The notes under the pieces: generated by a model
What the model was told of the DNA's origin: nothing
Databases searched by the model: none
What the model saw: the letters and a program-made list of their open reading frames with translations, nothing else
Program-made: the position numbers and the translations under genes
Shown here: positions 4,036 to 44,850 of the stretch, one piece after another
Numbering within the stretch: the first letter of the stretch is position 1
Layout of the letters: every line of letters starts with the position of its first letter
Origin: Sycon ciliatum
Lineage: Eukaryota; Porifera; Calcarea; Leucosolenida; Sycettidae
Direction of reading: 5' to 3'
DNA length: 64,000 nucleotides
Assembly: GCF_964019385.1 (NCBI RefSeq)
Contig: NC_088655.1
Span: forward strand, 18,395,796-18,459,795

Positions 4036-4831
4036 TACTACTACTACTACTACTACTACTACTACTACTACTACTACTACTACTACTACTACTACTACTA
4101 CTACTACTACTACTACTACTACTACTACTACTACTACTACTACTACTACTACTACTACTACTACTACTACTACTACTACTACTACTACTACTACTACTAC
4201 TACTACTACTACTACTACTACTACTACTACTACTACTACTACTACTACTACTACTACTACTACTACTACTACTACTACTACTACTACTACTACTACTACT
4301 ACTACTACTACTACTACTACTACTACTACTACTACTACTACTACTACTACTACTACTACTACTACTACTACTACTACTACTACTACTACTACTACTACTA
4401 CTACTACTACTACTACTACTACTACTACTACTACTACTACTACTACTACTACTACTACTACTACTACTACTACTACTACTACTACTACTACTACTACTAC
4501 TACTACTACTACTACTACTACTACTACTACTACTACTACTACTACTACTACTACTACTACTACTACTACTACTACTACTACTACTACTACTACTACTACT
4601 ACTACTACTACTACTACTACTACTACTACTACTACTACTACTACTACTACTACTACTACTACTACTACTACTACTACTACTACTACTACTACTACTACTA
4701 CTACTACTACTACTACTACTACTACTACTACTACTACTACTACTACTACTACTACTACTACTACTACTACTACTACTACTACTACTACTACTACTACTAC
4801 TACTACTACTACTACTACTACTACTACTACT
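4036..4831 (+). repeat. (ACT)n array 1
   Basis: About 265 uninterrupted ACT units. The left edge is the LINE 3' end and the right edge is the 3' end of a minus-strand REL retrotransposon fragment. Confidence 0.98.
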
Positions 4832-5393
4832 GACCAAACCACTTTTACGGGCAAAAAAATACCATGGTAAGCACACAAGTGCTATTGTTATATTGTCCAG
4901 ATTGACGCATGGACACTGAATCTCAGCCGGCAGCCTGTCGACACTGCACCAACAACGACGAGCGGACGCGACGCTGGTAAGATGATCGGCAACCGCGAAA
5001 GCAGGTTATTGCCCACCGTACGAGGCAGAATGCCAGCCGAACACGCAATGCACTGACGATGCTTGAATACCGGATGTCTTTATTGCGCTCCGCGAGCCGA
5101 CCGGCAAGTGTCGCCAGGAATCGTGAGCACTCCGGCCCCGCCATCCCATTCGTGGCGAACACAAGAGGGGTGAAAGAGCCTCTCTCGACTTCAGTGACCC
5201 TGGCACCGTACTGCTGCTTCTTTTGCCGTTCATGGGCCCTGAGTTGGTTAAGGACTTCTGGACCAGACAGCACAGACGCCTTAGGGTGGGTTACCCTAAC
5301 ATCAAAATAAGCGTCTTGCTGCCTTGTCCAGAAGCCCCGGGCACGAATGTCCAGCCGAGCCTCATCAGTCCGGTTAGCCGTCGCATAGGGCAC
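4832..5393 (-). pseudogene. REL retrotransposon fragment E1: endonuclease end and 3' UTR
   Basis: On the - strand 5393-4923 is open for 156 codons. It encodes the last part of the restriction-like endonuclease: ARLDIRARGFW, then 15 residues after the first Asp, YFDVRVTHP, then the conserved FTPLVFATNG and C-terminal ITCFRGCRSSY. Everything N-terminal (Cys motif, RT, zinc site) is missing, so this is a 5' truncation typical of target-primed reverse transcription. Its 3' end has a GCCCGTAAAAG block almost the same as in the family-A copies, which lie in the opposite orientation. Both ends abut ACT arrays. Confidence 0.85.
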
Positions 5394-5639
5394 ACTACTA
5401 CTACTACTACTACTACTACTACTACTACTACTACTACTACTACTACTACTACTACTACTACTACTACTACTACTACTACTACTACTACTACTACTACTAC
5501 TACTACTACTACTACTACTACTACTACTACTACTACTACTACTACTACTACTACTACTACTACTACTACTACTACTACTACTACTACTACTACTACTACT
5601 ACTACTACTACTACTACTACTACTACTACTACTACTACT
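5394..5639 (+). repeat. (ACT)n array 2
   Basis: About 82 perfect ACT units between two minus-strand REL fragments. Confidence 0.98.
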
Positions 5640-43200: not shown

Positions 43201-44779
43201 GGAGCGGGAGTATTCCACTTCTGTTGCGGTGACGGAGCCGCTTATACGTCTGATGATTGGTGATGGTTCGGGGAGTGCCATGCCCGATGGCGAGGAGGTG
43301 TCTTTGGCATCGCCTCAGAATCCACCATGGTCAGTTGCTTCTGCTTCTGCTGCGTCCGTTCGTGATCCTCCTGGACCTGTGACCCGGCCAGAACCTGGGG
43401 TCCACACCACCCAGCCGGTTCGTGATAACCCGTCTGTCGCAGCCGCTACCGAGTCCCGCAAGCAAGCAGTCTCATGTCGCAAGGACAAGGAGAAGTCGCA
43501 GAAGGCACTAGTCGCGGCGTTGTATCCCGATCTGCCCCGCCTCAGCAATGCCTCACAAATATCGCCGGTGAGAAGGGCGTGTCGTCATGGCTGACGTGTG
43601 CCCCGCTTACTGCGCACTGGACAATCCTGAATCAGTCCGACTTTCGAGAAGCGGTGTGCATACGCTATGGGTACCTGCCACTGGATGTCCCGTGCAAATG
43701 CGCTTGTGGAGCGGACACCACCTTACACCACTCGATGACGTGTCCACATGGGGGGTACCCGATGGCACGTCACGACGAAATCCGGGATACCCTGGCACCT
43801 GTCCTTGGCGATGTCGTGCCGGACGTGGAGGTCGAGCCTAGATTGCTCCCTCTCGATGGCGAGGTGCTCGCCGGCCGGACCGCCAATCCCAGCGCTGAAG
43901 CTCGTTTGGACAACAGGGCAGGGGGTTTCTGGACAAGGCAGCAGGACGCTTTTTTTGATGTCAGCGTCACCCACCCTAAAGCGTCCCTGCTGTCGCGTTC
44001 GGAAGCCCTTGGCCAACTGCGCACCAACGAGTTGGAGAAGAAGCGGAAATACTGCCAGAGGATCACGGACGTCGAGCGAGGTGCCTTCACTCCGTTGGTG
44101 TTTGCCACGAATGGCATGGCTGGTGCAGCGTGCGGAATGTTCCTGAAGCGGCTTGTTCAGCGCGTGGTGGAGAAGCACTCTGACCTACAGTACTCCGTCG
44201 TCATGCACCATCTTCGTGCCAAGATTACCTTTTGTCTGCTCCGCTGGGCCGTAACCTGTCTGCGTGGATGCTGGGGAGCTCGGGGCGTACGCCGTGGCAA
44301 TTCGTTTGTCACGGAGTGCAGGCTGCTCCGGTAGTGGCATGGGGCTGTGTGGCAGATCCTAAAACGGATGTTGTGACGTAACGGACATATCTGTTTTTGT
44401 GCATGTCTTTGTTTTTTTGTTCTTGTTTCTACTTTTATAATAGTTTGTTTTGTTTATCGGACAGATCGAAATAAGCATTCACACGCAGACAAATTATACA
44501 TCTACCACCCTATTGGTTTATGATGTTTTTACACATATACCCCCAATAGGGTATTTATCAGACTTGAGTTTTCAACTTACACATTACACATTCACCACTC
44601 AATCGGCTTTTGGTTTGTTCACACATACGTACCATACGCGATCTATTGGACTTGAGTTTTACCTTGTGTCCTTTTTTTTTTTGCAGTCTGCAGATTCTTT
44701 TGTTGGACATTGTTAATTGAGGTTCTTGTTGCTTTTGGGTTACGCATATGCGTCATTTGCCCGTAAAAGAGGCCCTGTT
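40278..44779 (+). mobile_element. REL retrotransposon E9 (family A), full length, inactivated
   Basis: This 4.5-kb element has a 437-bp 5' UTR (40278-40714), a coding region 40715-44334 broken by one frameshift, and a 445-bp T-rich 3' UTR ending GCCCGTAAAAGAGGCCCTG before the last ACT array. The 3' 1.5 kb matches E3. Confidence 0.93.
40715..44334 (+). pseudogene. Family-A REL polyprotein with one frameshift and altered endonuclease residues
   Basis: ATG at 40715 begins MSQPAGGSKPCCVCSKSTG. Eight cysteines are spaced C11-x2-C14-x6-C21-x2-C24-x-C26-x6-C33-x2-C36-x7-C44. After a Pro/Ser/Arg-rich linker come TWRRNLFIVPHG, the RT with NKNPGVRPIAVGEVFRR, LVDAGNAFNSLNR, REGTCQGDPLAMGIY and YADD at about residues 650-653, then a second linker. 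A single-base deletion near 43534 (the E3 copy keeps the base) shifts the frame; the endonuclease continues to TAG at 44334. That part has CKCACG, RHDEIRD, LDNRAGGFW (E3 has LDI) and FFDVSVTHP (E3 has DVRV), so the endonuclease is probably weakened as well. Confidence 0.88.
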
Positions 44780-44850
44780 ACTACTACTACTACTACTACT
44801 ACTACTACTACTACTACTACTACTACTACTACTACTACTACTACTACTAC
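44778..44850 (+). repeat. (ACT)n array 11 (short right edge)
   Basis: About 24 units, ending at ACACACTAGAGCCC. It marks the right end of the array/retrotransposon nest. Confidence 0.97.

Follow-up and report, generated by a model that had tools for sequence, protein, structure and literature searches.

R2-like retrotransposons of several lineages lodged in (ACT)n microsatellites of Sycon ciliatum

The Dong retrotransposons take TAA repeats as their target. Compared here by description only, they resemble the elements of this report in belonging to the R2 group and in having a microsatellite as their target, TAA in their case versus ACT in ours. An extract of PMC3636483 places DongAg and DongBg in the R2 group, gives them a restriction-type nuclease and has them inserted in microsatellite repeats. 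In excerpts of another source (PMC4640811), Togen of fish combines a restriction-type nuclease with a (TG)n target and is placed near NeSL/HERO, some HERO families target microsatellites, and the Utopia / NeSL elements are target-specific, with a restriction-type nuclease, a precise 3' boundary and, in some of them, no target duplication. Further literature on known relatives comes from an extract of PMC5035012. Togen, again compared by description, has a microsatellite target in common with our elements, yet a dinucleotide instead of ACT, and Utopia targets U2 snRNA genes, not microsatellites. The junctions described below are of the ACT class and were found neither in (TAA)n, as for the Dong / R4 clade, nor in (TG)n, as for Togen, nor in U2 snRNA, as for Utopia; Rfam gave no snRNA match in the window. 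A link to GTAGTA, which we take to be the U2 snRNA sequence adjoining the Utopia cut, was considered and dropped because the cut lies elsewhere relative to the repeat. Microsatellite targeting by Dong, cited as a precedent in the preliminary description of this locus, stands, but the list given there was incomplete, lacking Togen and its (TG)n target and some HERO families.

In structure, the closest matches are those of R2: a Foldseek search with the predicted fold returned R2 structures as its seven best matches (Bombyx, Taeniopygia, Platysternon), aligned over reverse transcriptase and nuclease at 14-16% identity. R2 targets 28S rDNA, whereas the protein of the ACT clade is found at (ACT)n and has an N-terminal Cys cluster for which there is no Pfam match. 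Among the titles and abstract starts listed in open-access literature searches, none names an ACT-specific element. The kind of element is known; what looks new is that its target is ACT, that several lineages have conserved this target and that two orientations are fixed. Few retrotransposons are microsatellite-specific, and ACT lengthens the list of their targets.

The ACT region of the window and its inserts

The window, i.e. the whole 64-kb stretch of DNA analysed, has (ACT)n arrays only between 4036 and 44850 (TRF and run scans), a region of about 41 kb; a scan of all 64 kb found no ACT or AGT run of 4 units or more outside it. Of the 18 runs of at least 12 bp in the window, every one is ACT on the + strand and none is AGT. 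The features of the region are:

4036..44850, + strand: the one (ACT)n region, in which inserts divide some 14.5 kb of pure repeat (TRF and run scans; assembly may collapse or stretch kilobase-long arrays)
4832..5393, - strand: lineage E, truncated at the 5' end and comprising the nuclease domain with the 3' UTR; (AGT)n flanks in sense
5640..5875, - strand: lineage A', 236-bp 3' fragment, 99% identity with the end of 34728-38927
9016..10655, + strand: lineage D, 5'-truncated; sense flanks (ACT)n
12131..15810, + strand: lineage C, with its start within the N-terminal Cys cluster and an ORF that is open apart from this; (ACT)n flanks in sense
16912..17996: tenth insert, about 1.1 kb, bounded by T and A of the unit
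19209..21625, - strand: lineage B, 5'-truncated; sense flanks (AGT)n
25408..29101, - strand: lineage B, the longer of its two copies here, with a frame break in the nuclease region
29489..33779, - strand: lineage A, complete, open 1162-aa ORF (29798-33286)
34728..38927, - strand: lineage A', full length, broken frame
40278..44778, + strand: lineage D, long copy, broken frame, ORFs 40715-43594 and 43474-44334

Nine of these inserts are copies of one R2-like non-LTR retrotransposon kind, each touching ACT on both sides. This had been claimed in the preliminary description for copies as short as 236 bp, and the junctions of all nine bear it out; the further claim that no copy lies elsewhere in the window agrees with blastn of the nine copy segments against 1-4035 and 44851-64000, which gave no match. 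The subfamilies, put there at four or more (A-D), are indeed at least four, but the count was low: A, A', B, C, D and E are present. Since ACT runs of 4 or more units make up 37% of the window's non-element DNA, a random landing of 9/9 copies in ACT has a chance of about 1.4e-4. Phase in the window is non-random, with 3' flanks readable as starting at A and 5' flanks as ending at T, given a one-base ambiguity at the 3' end of both D copies and at the 5' end of two copies. At the 5' junction of the B copy at 19209-21625, 13 bases differ from the other B copy. The tenth insert showed no blastn match of note to the nine copies; on its - strand there is a weak Cys-rich reading frame, for which no Pfam match exceeded the cut-off (best zf-C4, E 0.068).

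Exon-like pieces of animal type, immunoglobulin-like and GAIN-like by eye, flank the array at about 650-2700 and 46170-48600, so that it probably occupies the intron of an animal gene. The copies seem to use the repeats as a landing pad and to fill them. Rfam, at E up to 5, gave just a tRNA match at 425-496 (42 bits) and one match far below the cut-off at the same place; with nothing beyond 425-496, no ribozyme was detected at the elements.

The protein, its lineages and their relatives

As judged from sequence and predicted fold, the element is an R2-group non-LTR retrotransposon with a single ORF, coding for a reverse transcriptase and a predicted C-terminal restriction-like nuclease. The ORF of lineage A has 1162 aa, and 13 genome rows span residues 1-1162 at 98-100% identity with no stops. 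RVT_1 matches it with E 8.6e-7 and 29.3 bits, slightly below the gathering score of 29.6, and a profile of the protein matches R2 and LINE-1 chains, as befits a non-LTR reverse transcriptase. Profile positions 848-908 match Bombyx R2 932-996 (E 1.4e-4). The residues C945, C947, H955 and C959, a zinc-binding C-C-H-C motif, are invariant across 19 rows and precede a putative C-terminal nuclease of the PD-(D/E)xK type, the catalytic residues of which were assigned by eye; the alignment of the predicted model with R2 extends through this nuclease into the C-terminal part of R2. The Cys-cluster pattern is found in 37 of 139 homologous proteins. Three relatives bear EukProt identifiers of the scpid series, which belongs to Sycon ciliatum, in line with a calcareous sponge as the probable host. 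A nuclease with a three-base repeat as its target would be a useful subject for asking how R2-like proteins read DNA.

We obtained a tree of 59 rows, selected by nuclease motif (27 VTHP-type and every fourth of 82 FNP-type) and rooted at the midpoint, in which E fills 13% of the columns and F 34%. The window lineages lie on one side of it and a sister lineage, F, together with the relative L001, on the other (SH-aLRT 100). Within the ACT clade C branches first, with weak support (SH-aLRT 80). Another tree of the family, from which the row winB_25408 (39 stops) was left out, has the window lineages dispersed and in no single clade. On these trees the simplest reading would make ACT targeting ancestral to this clade.

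In the one case found, F is inserted in non-ACT DNA, namely the coding sequence of a D copy (L108, L113; in L113 about 339-1720). Its tail consists of 16 A, and the insertion shows a target duplication of 6-7 bases. This poly(A)-tailed copy outside ACT belongs to the same genome, which could therefore serve to study how insertion changes between the site-specific and the non-specific mode. Close to the 3' end of L001, a relative at 37% identity on a contig of a Poribacteria MAG, stands CTACTACTA; we dropped this as evidence of an ACT target, since L001 groups with F, which makes its CTACTACTA uninformative on targeting. Two distant relatives (L002 and L003, 24-25%) had no usable ends, no homopolymers of use in betraying ACT flanks in other genomes were found among the 139 homologous proteins, and two scans for relatives in viral contigs found none.

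Junctions and strand across the genome

The genome of the window itself (538 Mb, 313 contigs) was searched with the A, C and D ORFs, and per search the best 40-48 of about 4000-8050 first-look candidates were scored; being limited to the best-scoring copies, this is a sample of younger copies in which old ones are undersampled. All 82 readable 3' junctions lie at an ACT-class unit (37 A/A' including the window's A, 23 C, 14 C2, 7 D and 1 E), a count that leaves out the eight other window copies, which also adjoin ACT, and a few junctions concealed by gaps and N stretches. The register is the same T^A in 81 of the 82, i.e. the start is readable at A, with a one-base ambiguity at the D ends and at L049. 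The specificity for ACT put forward in the preliminary description thus extends to the genome searched with the ORF at 29798-33286 and its relatives, and within the ACT clade no intact 3' end lay in plainly non-ACT DNA, although the C copies L054, L057 and L084 have only one or two clean units. Among the copies sampled, the simple repeat ACTACTACT is almost the sole home of this large retrotransposon group.

Among the matches listed, the A search gave 43 rows, which become 40 copies once pieces are merged (L004-L033 and L034-L043; L044 holds the upstream part of the L009 copy, from which 2500 N separate it). In 37/37 readable cases what follows the 3' end reads (AGT)n in element sense, the 3' sides of L019, L031 and L041 being hidden by N stretches. 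An exact AGT start was observed in 27 of the 28 A/A' copies of the first set, and in all nine 3' flanks read in L034-L043. The 28th copy, L033, shares this 3' end, after which come AGTAGTAC and, next, an insert whose ends are inverted. This insert (about 846-1150 of L033, ends CGTAAAGTACCGCC) lies inside the ACT array. The 5' flank is of the AGT class in 37/37 readable A/A' copies, L036 having only a short impure tract; left out were L009 (N), L041 (unclear) and L020 (copy apparently interrupted by an LTR element). Strict 5' phase is found in 20 of 28 A/A' copies, and the remainder have extra matching bases or impure units.

The C search listed 43 rows, comprising 27 C copies (the window's included), 14 copies of a second lineage, C2 (56-61% in the search with the C ORF), and two further pieces. 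The 3' sides of C were read in 22 copies and, in L018, in a further one; another three copies outside the window are devoid of a 3' part. All 23 flanks are of the ACT class in sense; 22 start at A, and L062 begins inside the unit. At least three perfect units follow in 20 of the 23, the others being L057, with two ACT units before other sequence, and L054 and L084, where ACT is mixed with AGT. In L049, L052 and L062 the last part of the 3' UTR is gone and ACT still adjoins. For C2 the 3' flank starts with ACT in 14/14 copies (L080 has two units, then an interruption). At the 5' side, ACT ends the flank in all 14 C/C2 copies that reach the 5' end, out of 20 upstream pieces of which six are too short to tell.

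The remaining lineages rest on smaller numbers. Of the 88 rows of the D search, eight places were read, and in seven the D end is followed by ACT, the eighth being interrupted by another element. E is known from two copies, the one outside the window having an AGT 3' flank, and B from three, the one outside the window being readable only at its 5' side, which comes after AGT. Some of the copies counted may be duplicates of one insertion, an example being the pair L101/L102 (C4), with identical 5' truncation.

Strand is a property of the lineage: in element sense, A, A', B and E are flanked by (AGT)n, and C, C2 and D by (ACT)n. Oppositely oriented lineages share one array in the window, in L018 and in L042. 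The exception is a 5'-truncated C fragment (L020, about 220-542): it carries a poly(A) tract some 27 long and, read in its own sense, lies in AGT. Perhaps a polyadenylated C RNA was used here by the machinery of another element. Lineages A, B and E share one strand, C and D the opposite one, and B and D are neighbours, so that on the tree obtained strand preference has changed at least twice. On that tree the choice of target was retained across several deep lineages.

Insertion and the origin of the arrays

Target, phase, lineage-fixed orientation, 5' truncation and the R2-like predicted fold, all evidence at the level of sequence, make it very probable that this R2-like, single-ORF clade inserts into (ACT)n at T^A by target-primed reverse transcription. 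The C-terminal nuclease would nick one repeat strand, element RNA would read through into the downstream repeat and so end in (AGU)n or (ACU)n, and this tail would pair with the nicked strand and prime cDNA synthesis. As the tail would derive from the copy's own flank, orientation would be inherited within each lineage; and since TA is identical on both strands, one cut could serve both strand preferences, the phase of T before and A after fitting both. AATAAA lies 7-12 nt upstream of the junction in A (main 3' form), A', B, C and C2, and was not seen near the end of D, E and the window form of A. At such a distance it would place polyadenylation inside the repeat, leaving RNA that ends in units matching the nicked strand, which would account for the precision of the 3' end as well as for the inheritance of orientation.

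A rather speculative extension is that the clade may also build its landing pad: RNA ending in (AGU)n or (ACU)n would be copied at each insertion, arrays would grow, and orientation would be inherited with the tail. Such a process would amount to a telomere-like loop at internal microsatellites, with ACT targeting ancestral and two guilds of opposite strand sharing the arrays. A different proposition, which the preliminary description had already raised, is that the arrays are altogether products of the elements, a repeat-bearing 3' tail being copied at insertion and then expanding, with ACT as a by-product. The arrays are long, often occupying the ~1 kb of flank examined, and an extract of PMC2887409 reports that RTE elements create microsatellites at their 3' ends. 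However, ACT is present at the 5' side as well, even at truncated 5' ends, and lineages of opposite orientation sit in one array of uniform strand, an arrangement that arrays made from each copy's own tail fail to explain. We consider such an origin improbable, although tail copying could still lengthen arrays.

Spread of copies between ACT arrays through recombination of the flanking repeats, in place of retrotransposition, seems to us slightly more improbable still. It would fit the phase kept across inserts, the long homology that repeats supply, and the common 5' truncation of the L101/L102 pair, but several distinct 5' truncation points directly adjoin ACT, and these need separate reverse-transcription events. 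The array of the window begins at the 3' end of a CR1/L2-like element, directly after AAAATAAAT, and it may, as a tentative suggestion, have been seeded by the 3' repeat tail of that element and colonised later. This concerns where the array came from, and is compatible with insertion targeted to ACT.

Other retrotransposon sequence is also present in the window. The CR1/L2-like element at 3044-4035 is the 3' part of a non-LTR element with an ORF that matches RVT_1, the clade name being a reading of that match. At 62811-63998 and 47221-48414 the translations point to an integrase ORF of Gypsy-like type and to another ORF that resembles a reverse transcriptase.
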